The position numbers and the translations under genes are program-made. From positions 1,054,001-1,118,000 of the forward strand of contig NZ_CP119787.1 of NCBI RefSeq assembly GCF_029338255.1: a stretch of 64,000 bases of DNA. Direction: 5' to 3'. Shown here piece by piece: positions 37,231 to 45,792 of the stretch; position 1 is the first letter of the stretch, and each line of letters begins with the position of its first letter. A model generated the notes under the pieces. It ran no database searches, was not told the DNA's origin, and saw nothing but the letters and a program-made list of their open reading frames with translations. This DNA comes from Haloarcula halobia (GTDB lineage Archaea; Halobacteriota; Halobacteria; Halobacteriales; Haloarculaceae).

Positions 37231-39108
37231 ATGGAAATTGTACCGGACACGAGCGTGGTCGTCGACGGCCGCGTGTCCGAACAGGTCGAGGCCGACGCCG
37301 ATCCGGACTCGCCGGAGAGCGGCAAAGGCTTTGCCGGCGCGACGGTGGTGATGCCCGAGGCCGTCGTCGGCGAACTCGAAGCACAGGCCAACGACGGCCG
37401 ACAGACCGGCTGGGAGGGACTCGAGGAACTCCAGCGACTGGTCGAGCTCGCAGGCGAGGGCACCATCGAGGTCGAGTACGTCGGCCGCCGGCCCGACGCC
37501 ATCGAGAAGCGCGACGCCGGCGAGGGCGAGATCGACGCGCTCATCCGGGACATCGCCGGCGACCGCGGCGCCCTGCTGGTCACCAGCGACGACGTCCAGG
37601 CCGAGGTGGCCCGCGCGAAGGGCCTGGAGGTCGAGTACATCGAACCCCGGGGGCGCTCGGTCGACCGCCTGGATATCGAGAACTTCTTCGACGAGTCGAC
37701 GATGAGCGTCCACCTGAAGGTCGGCGTCGCCCCGTTCGCGAAGAAGGGCGACATCGGCGACATGCACTACCAGCCGATTCGCGACGACGAGGCCACGGAG
37801 TCGGAACTGCAGGCCTACGCCGCCGACATCGAGGACGGGGCGCGCGGCTCGCCCGACGGCTTCGTCGAGCTGGACGAACCGGGGATGACCATCATCCAGT
37901 TCCGGGACCTCCGTATCGCCATCGCACGGCCGCCCTTTGCCGACGCCCTGGAGATCACGGCGGTCCGCCCCATCGTCAAGACCGAACTCGACGACTACGA
38001 GTACGCCGACGAACTGCGGGACCGCTTTACCGAACGCCAGCGTGGCGTCCTCATCTCCGGGTCGCCCGGGGCCGGGAAGTCGACGTTCGCCCAGGCCGTC
38101 GCGGAGTTCCTCGTCGACGCCGACTACTCGGTCAAGACGATGGAGAAGCCACGGGACCTCCAGGTCGGCCCGAACGTCACCCAGTACACCGCCCTCGACG
38201 GGTCGATGGCGAAGACAGCCGACGCGCTACTGATGGTCCGGCCCGACTACACCATCTACGACGAGGTCCGCAAGACCGACGACTTCGAGGTGTTTGCGGA
38301 CATGCGTCTGGCCGGCGTCGGGATGGTCGGGGTCGTCCACGCGACCCGCGCCATCGACGCCCTCCAGCGACTCATCGGCCGGGTCGAACTCGGTCTCATC
38401 CCGCAGATCGTCGACACCGTCGTCTACATCGAGGCCGGCCAGGTCCACACCGTCTACGACGTCACGACCGAGGTCAAGGTCCCCGCGGGCCTCATGGAGG
38501 AGGACCTGGCCCGCCCGGTCATCATGGTCAAGGACTTCGAGACCGACGCGCCGGCCTTCGAGATCTACACCTTCAACAACCAGGTCGTCACCGTCCCGCT
38601 TGACGAGGACGACGACGGCGAGGACTCGGGCGTCGACCGCCTCGCGAAACAGGAGGTCGAACGCGAGATCCGCTCGATCGCCCGCGGCCACGTCGAGGTC
38701 GAACTGCGCGGCCCCAACACGGCGGTCGTGTGGGTCGAGGACGACGACATCTCGCAGGTCATCGGCAAGGGCGGGGGTCGCATCTCCGACGTCGAGAACC
38801 GCCTGGGCATCGACATCGACGTCCGGACCTTCGAGGAGCGCCCGACCGGCCCCTCCGGCGGGCCACAGACCGACAGCGGCGGCAAACAGGGCGAGATCGT
38901 CCAGCCCGAGGTCACGTCGCGACACATCATCGTCCCGCTTGACGGGCACGCCGGCGACACCGTCGAGGTGCAGGCCGACGGCGAGTACCTGTTCACTGCG
39001 ACGGTCTCCCGTGGCGGCGAGATACAGGTCTCGCGCGGGTCGGGTATCGCGGAGGAACTGGAGCGGGCAATCGACCGCGGGAACACGATCACCGTCGTGC
39101 CGTCCTGA
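37231..39108 (+). CDS. PIN-domain / type II secretion-like ATPase with KH domain (PINA)
   Basis: The 625 residues contain an N-terminal PIN nuclease-like domain ('MEIVPDTSVVVDGR', acidic residues D6 and D12, and 'LLVTSDDVQAEVAR'). A GspE-like ATPase core follows (Walker A 'GSPGAGKST' near residue 278; 'YTIYDEVRKTDDFEVFADMRLAG'), then a KH domain with 'VIGKGGGRISDVENRLG' (about 510-526) and a C-terminal beta domain. This matches archaeal PINA proteins, hexameric ATPases reported to act on Holliday junctions. ATG 37231 is 27 nt after a TATA-like 'CTTATCAA'. The last 28 bp of the gene lie inside a 157-bp tandem duplication. Confidence 0.9.
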   Translation: MEIVPDTSVVVDGRVSEQVEADADPDSPESGKGFAGATVVMPEAVVGELEAQANDGRQTGWEGLEELQRLVELAGEGTIEVEYVGRRPDAIEKRDAGEGEIDALIRDIAGDRGALLVTSDDVQAEVARAKGLEVEYIEPRGRSVDRLDIENFFDESTMSVHLKVGVAPFAKKGDIGDMHYQPIRDDEATESELQAYAADIEDGARGSPDGFVELDEPGMTIIQFRDLRIAIARPPFADALEITAVRPIVKTELDDYEYADELRDRFTERQRGVLISGSPGAGKSTFAQAVAEFLVDADYSVKTMEKPRDLQVGPNVTQYTALDGSMAKTADALLMVRPDYTIYDEVRKTDDFEVFADMRLAGVGMVGVVHATRAIDALQRLIGRVELGLIPQIVDTVVYIEAGQVHTVYDVTTEVKVPAGLMEEDLARPVIMVKDFETDAPAFEIYTFNNQVVTVPLDEDDDGEDSGVDRLAKQEVEREIRSIARGHVEVELRGPNTAVVWVEDDDISQVIGKGGGRISDVENRLGIDIDVRTFEERPTGPSGGPQTDSGGKQGEIVQPEVTSRHIIVPLDGHAGDTVEVQADGEYLFTATVSRGGEIQVSRGSGIAEELERAIDRGNTITVVPS

Positions 39109-39413
39109 AGGGCATCCGACGAGCGTAGCGAGTCGGTTCCCGGGACCGAATAGCGTGAGGTCCCGCTTTTTCGCCCACGTTTTTCGAGGAGCGGTGTGCG
39201 AGCACCGCGAGCACACCCGACGACGAAAAAGGTGGTAGAACACGATCACCGTCGTGCCGTCCTGAAGGGCATCCGACGAGCGTAGCGAGTCGGTTCCCGG
39301 GACCGAACAGCGTGAGGTCCCGCTTTTTCGCCCACGTTTTTCGAGGAGCGGTGTGCGAGCACCGCGAGCACACCCGACGACGAAAAAGGTGGTAGAACAC
39401 GATCACCGTCGTG
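39081..39413 (+). repeat. 157-bp tandem duplication carrying three hairpins, starting inside the PINA gene
   Basis: 39081-39237 and 39238-39394 are identical except for one base (T at 39151 against C in the second copy). A third partial copy begins at 39395 and loses identity after about 19 bp. The unit includes the last 28 bp of the PINA coding sequence and its stop. Each copy holds hairpins CCGAC/GTCGG, CGGGACC/GGTCCCG and GGTGTGC/GCACACC with 11-nt loops. The last is enclosed by an outer arm CCAC-G-TTTTTCG / CGAAAAA-G-GTGG. The rest of the 373-bp gap to SAMP1 holds no gene. Confidence 0.9.
39165..39235 (+). terminator. Probable T-rich terminator of the PINA gene, repeated 157 bp downstream
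   Basis: Two T5 tracts (39166-39171 and 39180-39184) follow GC-rich hairpins directly after the stop codon. On the opposite strand the A5 tract at 39226-39230 gives a T run too. Oligo-T stretches are the core of archaeal intrinsic termination. The same layout is repeated in the second copy. Function is inferred from position. Confidence 0.45.
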
Positions 39414-39458: not shown

Positions 39459-39481
39459 CGCCGACCCGCTAGATGACCGAT

Positions 39482-39757
39482 ATGGAAATCGAGCTCCGCT
39501 TCTTCGCGAACTTCCGGGAGACCGTCGGCCAGAAGGTGATCCACCGCGAGTTCGACGACGAGGCGACGGCCGGCGACATCCTCCGGTCGCTCCCCGAGGA
39601 GTTCCCGGAGATGGAACTGTTCGAGGCCGACGGTCAGCTGCGCCAGTACCTGACGATTCTGCGCAACGGCCAGGACATCGAACACATCGAGGGGCTCGAG
39701 ACGACACTCGCGGACGGCGACGAGCTCAGCGTCTTTCCGCCGGTCGCGGGCGGCTAG
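39482..39757 (+). CDS. samp1: SAMP1-like ubiquitin-like small modifier / MoaD sulfur carrier
   Basis: This 91-residue beta-grasp protein begins 'MEIELRFFANFRETVGQK' and ends 'DELSVFPPVAGG'. The C-terminal Gly-Gly is the site adenylated by UbaA. In haloarchaea SAMP1 serves both as a protein modifier and as the MoaD-type sulfur carrier for molybdopterin synthase. ATG 39482 was chosen over 39473 from family length and TATA spacing. The stop codon overlaps by 4 nt the stop of a convergent gene that encodes another beta-grasp protein. Confidence 0.9.
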   Translation: MEIELRFFANFRETVGQKVIHREFDDEATAGDILRSLPEEFPEMELFEADGQLRQYLTILRNGQDIEHIEGLETTLADGDELSVFPPVAGG

Positions 39758-40149
39758 CAACAGAAGATAAAGGGGTAGAGCAGGCCGACACGGTCGCCCT
39801 CCTCGAGCGTCGTGTCGAGGCCGTCGAGCAGTTCGTTGAACTGCCCGTTGACCGTCACGCGGGCGTAACACCGGGTCTGTTCGCCTTCGGGGTTCTTCGC
39901 CCACGTCCCCGGCAGGTCGACCAGCTCCGGTGCCCAGCCGTCCGTCGAGGCCTCGGACTCCGTCTCGGCGATGAGGAGGTCGGCCACGTCGTAGGTCCCA
40001 CAGAACACCTCGAGGAAGTCCCCGAGCGTTCGCCCGTCGAACGTGTACTCCATGTGCGGTTCCCCGACGGCGGCTCTGACGTGACCCGTACACCGGACCT
40101 CGACGGTCCGCTCGGCGGCTGTCTCCTGCTCGCGAAGTTGCCTGCTCAT
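39754..40149 (-). CDS. MoaD-like beta-grasp protein ending in Cys-Cys instead of Gly-Gly
   Basis: This 131-residue protein has a MoaD/ThiS-like beginning ('TVEVRCTGHVRAAVGEPHMEY') and ending ('DTTLEEGDRVGLLYPFIFCC'). The end aligns with the 'LL.PVAGG' tail of MoaD and SAMP, with Cys-Cys in place of Gly-Gly. A loop of about 35 residues rich in Glu, Ser and Pro ('ETESEASTDGWAPELVDLPG') is inserted between the second and third strands. ATG 40149 was chosen over a start at 40194. It is convergent with SAMP1, overlapping by 4 nt. A role in the tungsten/molybdenum cofactor block is inferred; conventional E1 adenylation seems unlikely without the terminal Gly. Confidence 0.68.
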   Translation of the reverse strand: MSRQLREQETAAERTVEVRCTGHVRAAVGEPHMEYTFDGRTLGDFLEVFCGTYDVADLLIAETESEASTDGWAPELVDLPGTWAKNPEGEQTRCYARVTVNGQFNELLDGLDTTLEEGDRVGLLYPFIFCC

Positions 40150-40240
40150 GCCGCCATCTAAGGTCGCAAGCACCAACAACGTGGGGCCGAACATGTTCGT
40201 CCGGGGCTGGCTTTAATTGGGTCCGGCCCGTCGCGAGGGT

Positions 40241-40609
40241 ATGGACGACATCGAACTGGCCATCCCGGGCCCTATCGTCGACTCGCTGCCCGAGGACGGC
40301 GCGGACGCGAAACGGGACATCCAGCGCGCCGTCGACGGGTGGGAGAACGACATCAACGCCGTGCTCGACAGCGACGATCCTGCGGCCGGCGTGGTCGACC
40401 TCATCGAGTACTTCGAGGACCGCTGGGAGGCCTACGACGAGTACGTCGTGGAACTGCGGGCGTGGGGGCAATCACCCATCTACGCGATGGTCTGGCGAGA
40501 CCTCGTGGCGTCGGTCATCCAGCAGATATACGACCACGCCGACCTGGCCGACCGAATCAACCGCGAGCGCAACGCCCGTATCGTCGACGACGGCATCCGG
40601 CCTGGATGA
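40241..40609 (+). CDS. Conserved hypothetical helical protein
   Basis: This 122-residue acidic protein is mostly helical, with 'DLIEYFEDRWEAYDEYVVELRAWG' (quoted in part) and 'YAMVWRDLVASVIQQIYDHADLADRINRE'. No membrane segment or catalytic motif is seen. The TATA-like 'CTTTAA' at 40211-40216 is 27 nt before ATG 40241, so the upstream TTG start is not needed. It is the first of three short same-strand genes that lie between SAMP1 and the AOR gene. Confidence 0.62.
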   Translation: MDDIELAIPGPIVDSLPEDGADAKRDIQRAVDGWENDINAVLDSDDPAAGVVDLIEYFEDRWEAYDEYVVELRAWGQSPIYAMVWRDLVASVIQQIYDHADLADRINRERNARIVDDGIRPG

Positions 40610-40661: not shown

Positions 40662-40916
40662 ATGCGACGTGAACGGAGCTGGCGCGGTATCTCGATACGG
40701 GCCGCCGTCGGCTACCTCGAGAACTGCGGCGGCGAGAAACAGGACGAGACGACCGTCGCCGGGGACGGCTGGACGGCCCAGCTCTCCGCCGAGAAGGTCA
40801 GCGTCGGCCCGTCTTTGCAGTTGAACGAGGTGACGGTCGTCTTCGAGGGTGAGGCGGAGACGCTGGACCCGCTCATCGAGCGGTTCGCCCAGAAGGCTAT
40901 GCGCGCGGGCGGGTGA
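40662..40916 (+). CDS. Short conserved haloarchaeal protein
   Basis: The 84 residues begin 'MRRERSWRGISIRAAVGYLENCGGE' (quoted in part), have a beta-rich middle ('GDGWTAQLSAEKVSVGPSLQLNEVTVVFEG') and end 'IERFAQKAMRAGG'. The protein terminates in Gly-Gly, but the preceding fold is not clearly beta-grasp and the GG follows a helix, so a modifier role is not supported. A TATA-like 'TTTAG' lies about 27 nt upstream. Function unknown. Confidence 0.62.
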   Translation: MRRERSWRGISIRAAVGYLENCGGEKQDETTVAGDGWTAQLSAEKVSVGPSLQLNEVTVVFEGEAETLDPLIERFAQKAMRAGG

Positions 40917-40922
40917 GCGCCG

Positions 40923-41285
40923 GTGGCCGACCATCCTATCGAGGGGCAACTGCTCCTTGCTGCGGGCGCCCGCGCGAGCGTCGCCCTCCACCGCGTCGAC
41001 GGCCTCGTCGAGCGGGCCCAGGACCACGTGGTCGCCAACCTCGAGGCCTACGAGCGGGCCTACGAGCGCATCGAGGGCGCCCGCGACGCCGACTTCTACT
41101 GCGTCGAGACGGGGTTCTGGGAGCGGGTCGGCGAGGAGCTTGGCTTCGACCGCCGGGAGGCCGACGCCGTCCGGCGCGCTCACGAGGCGCAGTTCACCCG
41201 CGACGGCCGCCGACTCGACCGGGAGTCGGAGTTCGAGTCGACGCTCGAGGTTCGCGAGGTCGTGGCCGTCTCGGCTACACGCTGA
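40923..41285 (+). CDS. Conserved hypothetical protein
   Basis: This 120-residue protein is predicted to be mainly helical ('RVDGLVERAQDHVVANLEAYERAYERIEG', quoted in part, is a long amphipathic helix) followed by 'FYCVETGFWERVGEELGFDRREADAV'. GTG at 40923 lies 6 bp after the stop of the previous gene, so the two are probably cotranscribed. Its 3' end overlaps the convergent gene by 11 nt. No family is recognised. Confidence 0.58.
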   Translation: MADHPIEGQLLLAAGARASVALHRVDGLVERAQDHVVANLEAYERAYERIEGARDADFYCVETGFWERVGEELGFDRREADAVRRAHEAQFTRDGRRLDRESEFESTLEVREVVAVSATR

Positions 41286-41637
41286 GCGTCTCGAGTACCT
41301 TCTCCGAGAAGTCCGTCTCCGAGAGGTCGCCGTTGTGCAGGCGGTCGAACCACTCGGCGTCGACGTACCAGTAGCCCCGAACCTCGCCGTCCAGGTCGAG
41401 CACGGTTGCCTCGACGTCGTGGCCAGTCCAGTCGTCGGCGTGGAGGTCCCGGAGGACGTTGATCACCCGGCCGATCTCGCGGTGGGGGACCGACCCCGGC
41501 TGGGCGGCGATGGACTCGTAGGCGACCTCGTAGGTCTCGTCGCCGGTGCGCTCGGTGAACGTCTGGACGTAGACGCCGTGGCTGGTCAGTCGCGACTCCA
41601 CCTGGAACTCGAAATCGTCGAAATCCTCCTTGTGCAT
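41275..41637 (-). CDS. Conserved hypothetical protein downstream of AOR
   Basis: This 120-residue acidic protein has alternating beta and helical segments ('EFQVESRLTSHGVYVQTFTERTGDETYEVAYESI' in part, and 'VRGYWYVDAEWFDRLHNGDLSETDFSEKVLETL'). No metal or nucleotide motif is visible. It begins 76 bp after the stop of the aldehyde oxidoreductase gene on the same strand, with a GA-loop hairpin in the gap. Cotranscription with AOR is possible but unproven. Confidence 0.6.
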   Translation of the reverse strand: MHKEDFDDFEFQVESRLTSHGVYVQTFTERTGDETYEVAYESIAAQPGSVPHREIGRVINVLRDLHADDWTGHDVEATVLDLDGEVRGYWYVDAEWFDRLHNGDLSETDFSEKVLETLSV

Positions 41638-41713: not shown

Positions 41714-43657
41714 TCAGTCGTCGCTCGGGGCGGCCGCGCCGCCGGCGCTGACGCCGGTGCCGGGGCCGATGTCGATGCCCAGCTCGTCGAGCTTCTCGTC
41801 GGGCACGACGCCGTCCTCCCAGCCGCGGACGTCGTAGTACTCCCCTTTCAGCTTGTCCAGCTCGGCGAGTTCGCCCTCGGAGCCGCCCTGTGCGGGGATG
41901 GCGTCCTCGTGACCCTCGACGAACCGGCCCGGCAGGTCGTCGTCGCTGCCGTCGAAGCCCGCGAGGTTGTTGTAGTAGCGTTCGAGGTTGTAGATGCGCT
42001 CGCCGGCCTCCATCAGCTCGTCCTCGGTGACCTCCATGCCGGTCATGCCGTTGTACTGCAGGACGTACTCCTCGATACCCTCGGCGAAGGCGTTGAACTT
42101 GCAGATGTCGAAGGAGTCGCTGATGGCGTGCAGGTCCTGGAAGAGGGCACACAGTTCGCCTTTGCCTTCCCACTCGCGCGGGTCGACCTTCTCCGGAACG
42201 CCCAGGATCTCGGCGGCCGGCGTGTACCCACGGAGGTGGCACGCGCCGCGGTTCGAGGTCGCGTAGCCGATGGCCATCCCCTTCATGCAGCGGGGGTCGT
42301 AGGCGGCCATCGTCTGGCCCTTGACCGCCAGCGAGTTGTCGTGGGCGTCGAACTCCTCGCCGAGGTGGTTCGGGCCCTCGGCGAGGTGGTCGGCGAGCTC
42401 GCCGTCGCGCTCGGCGATGGCGTCGATCATGTCGATCATCGTGTCGGCGTCGCCCCAGTCCATGCCCTCACCGAGCCCGTCGAGCTTGCCCTGCTCGGTC
42501 ATCTCCATGGCCATCGCCATCGTGTTGCCCACGTCGATGGTGTCGACGCCCACGTCGTTGCACCGTTCGAGCATCACGGCGATCTTGTCGCGCTCGACGT
42601 GGCCGGAGTTCGGGCCCAGCGCCCACGCGGACTCGTACTCGTAGGACTCGGTGCGGACGTTCAGCTCCTCGCCCTTGTGCATCGTCTGGACCTCGACTTC
42701 CTTCTTGCAGGCGACCGGACAGGAGTGACAGGTCGGCTCGTCGACGAGGATGTTCTCCCGGACGTTCTCGCCCGATACGTCCTCGGAGTCGATGATGCGC
42801 TCGCCGTCGCCCTCCGCCTCGGACATCGCCCGGGTCGAGGAGTACTTGGCGTTCTTCGTCGGCAGTCCGTCCATCTCCTCGGTGACGTTCATCAGGACGT
42901 TGGTACCGTACACCGAGAGGCCACCCTCGTTGGGGCCGGTGATGTCGGACTCCTGGATGACCTGCATGGCCTGCTTGTGGCCCTCCTGGAACGTCTCCTT
43001 GTCCTTCGGTTTCGGCATCCGGGTCGGCGACTTCACGACCACGGCTTTCAGCTTCTTGTTGCCCATCACACAGCCGGTCCCGCCACGGCCCGACGCCCGG
43101 TCGTCCTCGTTGACGATGCAGGCGTACTTGACCTCGTTCTCGCCGGCCTGGCCGATGGCCATCGTCGAGAGGTTCTTGCCGTAGGAGCCCTCGATCTCGT
43201 CTTCGATCTCGTCGATGGTGTCGTGGACGCCCCAGCCCCACATGTGGGAGGCGTCGCGCAGTTCGACCTCGCCGTCCTCGACGACGGCGTAGACGGGGTG
43301 GTCGGACTGTCCCTCGAACAGCAGGCCGTCGAACCCGGCCCACTTCAGGCGTGCGCCCGACCAGCCACCGTGGTGGGAGTCTGTGACCTGTCCCTCGATG
43401 GGTGACTTGGTACAGATGGCGATACGGCCGCTCATGGTCACCTGAGTCCCTGTGAGCGGGCCGTTCATGAACGCGAGCAGGTTGTCCGGGCCCAGTGGGT
43501 CGACGTCCGGACCCTGGTCGAAGACGTACTTCACACCCAGCCCCCGGGCACCGATGTACTTCTTCGCGTCCTCGTCGTCGATGCCCTCGTAGGACACCTC
43601 CCCCTCTCCGAGGTCTATTCGGGCGATGTGGTCTTGGAAGCCGCCGAGGTCAGTCAT
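41714..43657 (-). CDS. aor: Aldehyde:ferredoxin oxidoreductase (tungsten-type AOR family)
   Basis: This 647-residue protein has the AOR N-terminal domain ('YIGARGLGVKYVFDQ', 'GPLTGTQVTMSGR') and the cofactor-contact motifs 'AGENEVKYACIVNEDDRASGRGGTG' (quoted in part). The [4Fe-4S] cysteines are in 'CHSCPVAC' (about residues 329-336), with the fourth in 'SFDICKFNAF'. 'DVGNTMAMAMEM' matches a helix near the tungstopterin site. The family oxidises aldehydes to acids with ferredoxin as acceptor and normally carries W bound to two pterins. The surrounding Moco genes and TOBE regulator fit this assignment. The substrate is not determinable. Confidence 0.93.
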   Translation of the reverse strand: MTDLGGFQDHIARIDLGEGEVSYEGIDDEDAKKYIGARGLGVKYVFDQGPDVDPLGPDNLLAFMNGPLTGTQVTMSGRIAICTKSPIEGQVTDSHHGGWSGARLKWAGFDGLLFEGQSDHPVYAVVEDGEVELRDASHMWGWGVHDTIDEIEDEIEGSYGKNLSTMAIGQAGENEVKYACIVNEDDRASGRGGTGCVMGNKKLKAVVVKSPTRMPKPKDKETFQEGHKQAMQVIQESDITGPNEGGLSVYGTNVLMNVTEEMDGLPTKNAKYSSTRAMSEAEGDGERIIDSEDVSGENVRENILVDEPTCHSCPVACKKEVEVQTMHKGEELNVRTESYEYESAWALGPNSGHVERDKIAVMLERCNDVGVDTIDVGNTMAMAMEMTEQGKLDGLGEGMDWGDADTMIDMIDAIAERDGELADHLAEGPNHLGEEFDAHDNSLAVKGQTMAAYDPRCMKGMAIGYATSNRGACHLRGYTPAAEILGVPEKVDPREWEGKGELCALFQDLHAISDSFDICKFNAFAEGIEEYVLQYNGMTGMEVTEDELMEAGERIYNLERYYNNLAGFDGSDDDLPGRFVEGHEDAIPAQGGSEGELAELDKLKGEYYDVRGWEDGVVPDEKLDELGIDIGPGTGVSAGGAAAPSDD

Positions 43658-44634: not shown

Positions 44635-44671
44635 GGCGCGCTGTCGGTGTCAGGTGTGCGAAAAAACCACC

Positions 44672-44679
44672 CTTTAAAT
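44672..44679 (+). promoter_or_regulatory. TATA box of moaA
   Basis: 'CTTTAAAT' lies about 31 nt before ATG 44707, which supports 44707 over the GTG at 44647 as translation start and gives moaA its own promoter. Confidence 0.55.
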
Positions 44680-44706
44680 CCGGGGAGCGTCAACGTATGG
44701 CAGTAT

Positions 44707-45792
44707 ATGCTCGAGGACGACTTCGGCCGGGAGGTGACAGGCGTCCGGGTGTCACTCACCGACCGGTGTAACTTCGACTGCGTCTACTGCCACAACGAGG
44801 GGCTGGGTGACACGCGCGGGCCGCTGGACCCGCAGGACGACGAGCTCTCCACCGACCGGGTCGTCGCTTTCCTCGAGGTCTGTTCGGAGTACGGCGTCGA
44901 AGCGGTGAAGTTCACCGGCGGCGAGCCGATGCTTCGGGACGACCTCGAGGAACTCGTCCGGCGCACGCCCGACGGGATGGCGGTGTCGATGACGACCAAC
45001 GGGACCTTCCTCCCCGGGCGGGCGACCGGTCTGGTCGACGCCGGCCTCGAACGGGTCAACGTCTCACAGGACGCTCTGGACGCCGAGGACTTCGCGGCGC
45101 TGACCAACAGCGGGGCCTACGAGCGCGTCCTCGAGGGGGTCGAGGCCGCGCTGGACGCCGGGCTCGCCCCGGTCAAGCTCAACATGGTCGTCTTCGAGCC
45201 GACCGCGGGATACGTCCCCCGGATGGTCGATCACGTCGCCGAGAACCGCGGCCTCCAGCTCCAGCTCATCGAGTACATGCCCGAGCTGGCGGGCCACCCC
45301 GAGTGGGCCATCGACATCCAGCGCGTCCACGACTGGCTCGCGGACCGGGCCGACTACGTCGAGACCCGCGAGATGCACGACCGCAAGCGCTACTTCGTCC
45401 GGAGCGAGGCCGCCGAAGTCGAGGACGCGGCCGCCAGCACGTCGATGGCGGCCGCCGACGGCGGCGTCCGGACCGACCCGGGCGCGAGCGACGTCGGGAT
45501 GGTCGAGATCGTCGACCCCGTCGGCAACGCGGAGTTCTGCGCGAACTGCCACCGGGTCCGGCTCACTCACGACGGGTACCTCAAGGGCTGTCTGAACCGC
45601 AACGACGACCTGGTCGACATCGGCGAGACGAAGGCCCAGATGCGCGCGGCCTTCGAGAAGACGGTCGACGAGCGGGTCCCCTACTACGGCGAGTACATGG
45701 TCGAAGACGAGGCGGGCGACTGGACGTTCAACGAGGCCTACCAGGACAGCGAGGGCGACCGGACGCCCTACGAGTACACCGGGGACGACTGA
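44707..45792 (+). CDS. moaA: MoaA, GTP 3',8-cyclase (radical SAM)
   Basis: The 361 residues have the radical-SAM cluster C21-x3-C25-x2-C28 ('CNFDCVYC'), '[13 protein letters not shown]' for SAM binding, and a second C-terminal cluster in '[18 protein letters not shown]'. This is MoaA, which converts GTP to the first intermediate of molybdopterin synthesis together with MoaC. An Ala/Ser/Asp-rich insert (about residues 240-265) separates the two parts. The usual C-terminal Gly-Gly of MoaA is absent: the protein ends in a 40-residue acidic tail finishing 'YEYTGDD'. Activity is expected, but the tail deserves checking. moaC and moaE are not in the window. Confidence 0.9.

Follow-up and report, generated by a model that had tools for sequence, protein, structure and literature searches.

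A haloarchaeal MoaD/SAMP-fold protein with an invariant penultimate cysteine that occurs only together with aldehyde:ferredoxin oxidoreductase

Introduction

The defining feature of Ubl sulfur carriers is their C-terminal glycine, the substrate for activation by an E1 enzyme. What role could be played by a protein that keeps the fold of these carriers but ends in cysteine? This question is raised by the 64,000-nucleotide stretch of DNA analysed here (the window), in which a minus-strand ORF at positions 39754-40149 encodes a product of 131 amino acids that terminates in YPFIFCC. Such an ending has been known since 2010, when Makarova and Koonin described the haloarchaeal beta-grasp family arCOG00539 as ending in Cys-Cys, reporting the motif only and no function (PMC2948915). 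The protein of the window agrees with this description (haloarchaeal, beta-grasp, C-terminal CC) and is the same by description, the arCOG numbers in this work being assigned by matching the descriptions in that paper. Among the papers searched, none besides the one from 2010 names arCOG00539. What we add is that only a single cysteine of the tail is fixed, that the family depends strictly on aldehyde:ferredoxin oxidoreductase (AOR) and has a second, nirK-related context, and that it has an AOR-specific neighbour with a Gly-Gly end; as far as the literature was searched, these points are new.

Results

A cysteine-tailed protein in an AOR island

An earlier note on this DNA, which was unaware of the known motif, had proposed the ORF and its Cys-Cys end. 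Both are real, as the minus-strand frame was confirmed and relatives were found across haloarchaea. An alternative in-frame ATG is located at 40194, and conservation begins at about residue 14 of the 131-aa form. The ORF and its surroundings contain the following features:

39473-39757 (+), SAMP/MoaD-type Ubl with a Gly-Gly end, nearest to HVO_2177 (SAMP3)
39754-40149 (-), Cys-tailed MoaD-like protein, 131 aa, arCOG00539-type by description, with a beta-grasp fold, a 30-aa insertion with KNPEGEQT and the tail PFIFCC
39754-39774 (-), codons of its conserved C-terminal tail including the stop, P-F-[IML]-[FY]-C-[CLVFR], with an invariant penultimate Cys130
40241-40609 (+), small protein conserved in haloarchaea and encoded in the AOR/SAMP island, probably arCOG06307 or arCOG06309, no Pfam match
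40662-40916 (+), 84-aa protein with the invariant tail KA[MI]RAGG, fitting the description of arCOG06308 (TBP-like fold)
40923-41285 (+), another small conserved product of the AOR/SAMP island, probably arCOG06307 or arCOG06309
41275-41637 (-), small protein adjoining AOR, kept in Haloarcula-type loci
41714-43657 (-), AOR, the sole AOR-family gene of the genome
43933-44634 (+), ModE/Mop-type molybdate/tungstate-responsive regulator
44647-45792 (+), archaeal MoaA (GTP 3',8-cyclase) of pterin cofactor biosynthesis

In this island AOR is accompanied by MoeA, MoaA and the ModE/Mop regulator, and the Cys-tailed gene, like those of MoaD/SAMP-type carriers, is close to pterin-cofactor genes. The Ubl encoded on the opposite strand terminates in PPVAGG and scores above the cut-off of the NCBIfam SAMP1 model. 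Its similarity to HVO_2177 of Haloferax volcanii (99 bits) exceeds that to SAMP1 (52 bits), and HVO_2177 is SAMP3 (PMC4500146). The two genes share the four nucleotides CTAG. Hence the tail-to-tail arrangement with overlapping stop codons stands as it had been described, but the partner, then taken for SAMP1, is nearest to SAMP3, and the overlap is kept in near relatives only. In other Haloarcula a gap of about 30 nt separates the two genes, in Halorussus the SAMP gene lies on the opposite side of the Cys-tailed gene, and in most genomes they are not neighbours. The window also contains a 157-bp tandem duplication at 39081-39394, the copies of which are 99% identical; it covers the 3' end of a PIN/ATPase gene and the region downstream.

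A conserved haloarchaeal family of the MoaD/SAMP fold

When species genomes of bacteria and archaea were scanned, 79 loci were returned, with relatives in more than 70 haloarchaea. With the exception of one locus (L079) all hold clear relatives of the Cys-tailed protein, with identities of 42-95%; in other classes of the phylum no relative was found except one weak, partial MoaD-like match (genome G395). When 31 relatives were aligned, the motifs TGHV, GW, KNPEGEQT, NG.FNE, GDR and PF..C proved invariant or nearly so. The almost invariant KNPEGEQT is carried by an insertion of about 30 residues that splits the beta-grasp domain into two halves, and the majority of the invariant residues (KNPEGEQT insertion, FNE, GDR) are located outside the tail.

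The predicted MoaD/SAMP fold, which had previously been supposed from the sequence, is borne out by three lines of evidence. An AlphaFold model was obtained with a mean pLDDT of 70.6 and a pTM of 0.64; the top structural matches in the PDB (Foldseek, VIA) are SAMP1, HVO_2177, MoaD and CysO, with VIA Z-scores of up to 12.6 (to MoaD of a molybdopterin synthase) and 11.9 to HVO_2177; and a profile-profile comparison with the neighbouring SAMP family gave a probability of 96%. The protein thus represents a conserved haloarchaeal beta-grasp family that has the fold, the end of the last strand and the profile match in common with MoaD, SAMP1 and SAMP3. It differs from these in the insertion, the lack of Gly-Gly, the invariant cysteine and one additional residue in the tail, and it remains below the cut-offs of the curated models for ThiS (18.3 against 22.5 bits), moaD_arch (24.1 against 49.5) and SAMP1 (19.2 against 60). 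In Haloglomus halophilum we noted a divergent tandem paralogue (L059, 5427-5831) that has lost KNPEGEQT and ends in PLTC, with the cysteine in last place.

Only the penultimate cysteine of the tail is fixed

Across 76 species the tail follows the pattern P-F-[IML]-[FY]-C-[CLV]; 62 of the species have C in last place, 7 have L and 7 have V. In 18 divergent genomes, a set that may overlap with the former, the last place is taken by V, L, F or R, and the preceding cysteine is kept. All intact homologue tails that were read conform to PF[IMLVS][FY]C[CLVFR]; the penultimate cysteine is present in every one of them, and the C-terminal Gly-Gly for E1 adenylation in none. The exceptions to this rule are the Haloglomus paralogue with PLTC and three broken copies (L075, L076 and, in genome G141, L159). 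The tails of the latter are frameshifted or interrupted, and the copies may be pseudogenes or assembly errors.

Since only the penultimate cysteine is constant and the last residue varies, selection acts to keep this one cysteine. A conserved vicinal pair of thiols, as previously suggested, can therefore be dropped, and with it the vicinal dithiol or disulfide as a conserved feature of the family. The proposed replacement of Gly-Gly by Cys-Cys holds in part: the tail has a conserved cysteine and no Gly-Gly, but its last cysteine is variable, and CC lies over GG solely in the MAFFT alignment, which introduces one gap. Compared with SAMP3 the tail has one extra residue, so that a gapless register places the invariant cysteine over the terminal glycine of MoaD and SAMP3. 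Because of the MAFFT gap placement and the low-confidence tail of the model, this register may be off by one residue. Nowhere is the model less confident than in the tail, where pLDDT falls below 50, as a mobile segment might show. The fixed cysteine agrees with a single thiol on a flexible arm, as in DsrC/TusE, rather than with a vicinal dithiol or with a thiocarboxylate made by an E1.

The Cys-tailed protein is restricted to AOR genomes

The distribution of the gene was analysed in 242 haloarchaeal genomes that are at least 95% complete, with AOR counted as PF01314. The Cys-tailed protein is encoded in 158 of them, AOR in 188, nirK in 133 and moaE in 238. It is present in 158 of the 188 AOR genomes, versus 0 of the 54 without AOR (Fisher 1e-32). 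When stratified by genus, which takes out most of the shared ancestry, the association persists, with an exact P of 9.5e-8 over eight mixed genera. The co-occurrence with AOR is thus stronger than the earlier note could know. It is important to note that the gene is missing from 30 AOR genomes and hence not essential for AOR. From its exclusive occurrence in AOR genomes it is reasonable to propose that the protein probably helps to make or service AOR. Together with the recurrent proximity of the two genes described below, the co-occurrence makes a functional tie to AOR well supported.

AOR belongs to a family of aldehyde-oxidising enzymes that normally uses tungsten, and the partner of ordinary MoaD is MoaE. 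A factor of general pterin-cofactor biology is excluded, as the near-universal moaE (238/242) cannot account for the distribution, and DMSOR-II enzymes of the nitrate reductase type show no overall association with the Cys-tailed protein in the 242 genomes. The latter finding also removes nitrate reductase or DMSO reductase as the client, leaving a weak association within genera (P 0.009). Nor is there a sign of a special AOR subclade as client: the window AOR is of the type present in nearly all AOR-positive haloarchaea examined, and this type is shared by genomes with and without the Cys-tailed protein, whose AORs are 66-92% identical to that of the window and do not separate obviously by identity.

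A neighbouring Gly-Gly protein follows AOR almost perfectly

The 84-aa product of 40662-40916 resembles, by description, the haloarchaeal TBP-like family arCOG06308, which has a Gly-Gly C-terminus and is encoded next to a MoaD-like gene (PMC2948915). It is encoded in 187 of the 188 AOR genomes, versus 0 of the 54 others; the single AOR genome without it (G131) has divergent AOR copies only. In 85 of 98 genomes checked, its gene is within 10 kb of AOR. This near-perfect match, which the earlier note had missed, supports reading the locus as an AOR island. The 84-aa protein is an AOR-specific Ubl-like candidate and arguably more striking than the Cys-tailed protein.

Proposed role of the Cys-tailed protein

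The best reading of these results, to which we assign a probability of somewhat more than one third, is an E1-independent thiol or persulfide arm protein that serves the tungstopterin AOR system. The protein would derive from MoaD, have abandoned E1 and thiocarboxylate chemistry, and instead expose the thiol of a single cysteine at the tip of a flexible arm. Judged from sequence and model, the MoaD fold would carry a mobile tail, and the invariant penultimate cysteine would take the place of the terminal glycine, give or take one residue. It may fairly be inferred from the sequence that an E1 cannot charge the Cys tail, and charging by UbaA is not expected, because Gly-Gly is absent and the tail has an extra residue. 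Given the functional tie to AOR, the client would be AOR or its tungstopterin, and Cys130 could pass sulfur to the cofactor or to the enzyme. Most likely, the protein would help to mature AOR or to maintain it, acting as a thiol/persulfide sulfur carrier or as a sulfur ligand, when conditions are anaerobic and, often, denitrifying.

The sulfur-transfer step is suggested by the position of the thiol and by analogy with DsrC/TusE. DsrC carries a persulfide on the strictly conserved penultimate cysteine of its flexible C-terminus, and the preceding cysteine is variable (PMC3397948). The Cys-tailed protein likewise has a strictly conserved penultimate cysteine on an arm of low pLDDT and a variable second cysteine. 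On present evidence its fold appears to be different: DsrC/TusE gave no structural match among the matches listed by Foldseek and VIA, where MoaD/SAMP structures match, and no DsrEFH/TusBCD partners were recognised in the neighbourhoods of the gene. DsrC/TusE would be the nearest functional parallel, with a putative persulfide on Cys130. A second parallel comes from Thermococcus, in which MoaD-type Ubls supply the sulfur of the tungsten cofactor and the gene of one of them, TK1065, adjoins that of AOR, TK1066 (PMC11323500). Like the Cys-tailed protein, TK1065 is a MoaD-family protein adjacent to AOR, and it serves the tungsten cofactor; unlike what is proposed here, the Thermococcus Ubls are described as MoaD-family sulfur carriers with E1-type activation.

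More tentatively, and with less confidence than the general reading, one could envisage a ubiquitin-fold carrier dedicated to AOR in which an encoded cysteine thiol or persulfide replaces the E1-made thiocarboxylate at the same position. On one and the same scaffold, sulfur carriage would then have switched from the mode of MoaD to that of DsrC, beside an AOR-specific Gly-Gly protein of the arCOG06308 type. Should a cysteine be fixed at this place throughout a large lineage that retains the fold, this would represent a Ubl changing its chemistry. With the Cys-tailed and the 84-aa Gly-Gly protein there are two concrete candidates for tungsten-enzyme maturation, and haloarchaea such as Haloferax are genetically manipulable.

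Gene neighbourhoods and alternative readings

At least 20 of 76 genomes, which represent five genera and four families, have the Cys-tailed gene within 10 kb of AOR; nirK is equally close to it in at least 15 genomes from six other genera. In the majority of genomes the Cys-tailed gene does not adjoin AOR. Its surroundings repeatedly include genes for an AhbD-related radical-SAM protein (TIGR04053), a TIGR04347 protein, a regulator of the HTH_10 type, copper nitrite reductase and a NorB-type NO reductase. The context is therefore clade-dependent, with AOR in some clades and denitrification and haem genes in others, and its common theme is anaerobic metabolism. This other setting, in which nirK, norB and radical-SAM genes of the haem type lie nearby, had been missed previously; it speaks for a part in anaerobic or NO-related metabolism and less for one concerning the cofactor itself. 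Among AOR genomes, nirK is found in 103 of 158 with the Cys-tailed protein versus 4 of 30 without it (Fisher 1.2e-7), and within genera this association, given AOR, has a P of 0.002.

These data speak for a redox- or NO-protective thiol protein, whose Cys130 might form mixed disulfides, S-nitrosothiols or sulfenates and so shield or regulate O2- or NO-sensitive enzymes such as AOR, its theme being anaerobiosis and not cofactor synthesis. Besides the nirK statistics, the proximity of nirK, norB, HTH_10 and TIGR04053/TIGR04347 radical-SAM genes in many clades is in line with such a role. The link to AOR, however, is absolute, and all 26 nirK genomes that lack AOR also lack the gene (0/26); moreover, the MoaD fold and the tail suggest docking, not scavenging, and no partner thiol enzyme is linked. 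We consider this alternative possible but rather doubtful.

An unlikely alternative is that of a non-catalytic Ubl adaptor, a MoaD decoy or accessory subunit on MoaE, E1 or AOR, in which the cysteine would serve for docking or packing only. The MoaD/SAMP fold and the location of most invariant residues outside the tail would suit an adaptor, but packing alone hardly explains an invariant cysteine amid variable hydrophobic residues, and moaE is nearly universal whereas the Cys-tailed gene is not.

Quite improbable, in our view, is a metal chaperone, the Cys tail of which would bind W or Mo (or Cu for NirK) and hand it over to the pterin or the apo-enzyme. Thiol tails can bind soft metals, and the cofactor genes and metal-responsive regulator of the island as well as the adjacency to nirK in six genera are compatible with this. 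Yet with one invariant cysteine, followed by L, V, F or R in some homologues, there is no conserved dithiol chelate, and metal insertion is already covered by MoeA-type proteins, whose job it is.

Lipidation of the tail, with a prenyl or diphytanylglyceryl thioether as membrane anchor, can draw on the prenylation of C-terminal Cys motifs in eukaryotes and on the isoprenoid protein modification on record in haloarchaea, but is highly improbable, as the Cys pair is not conserved, the last residue varies widely and may even be Arg, and a non-exhaustive search recognised no prenyltransferase among the neighbour families scanned.

The denitrification-type context of the Cys-tailed gene also comprises further recurrent neighbours, three uncharacterised proteins: a probable membrane protein of 407 aa (L013, 6374-7594), a protein of 214 aa (L050, 2524-3165) and a COX1-like protein of 478 aa (L057, 4491-5924).
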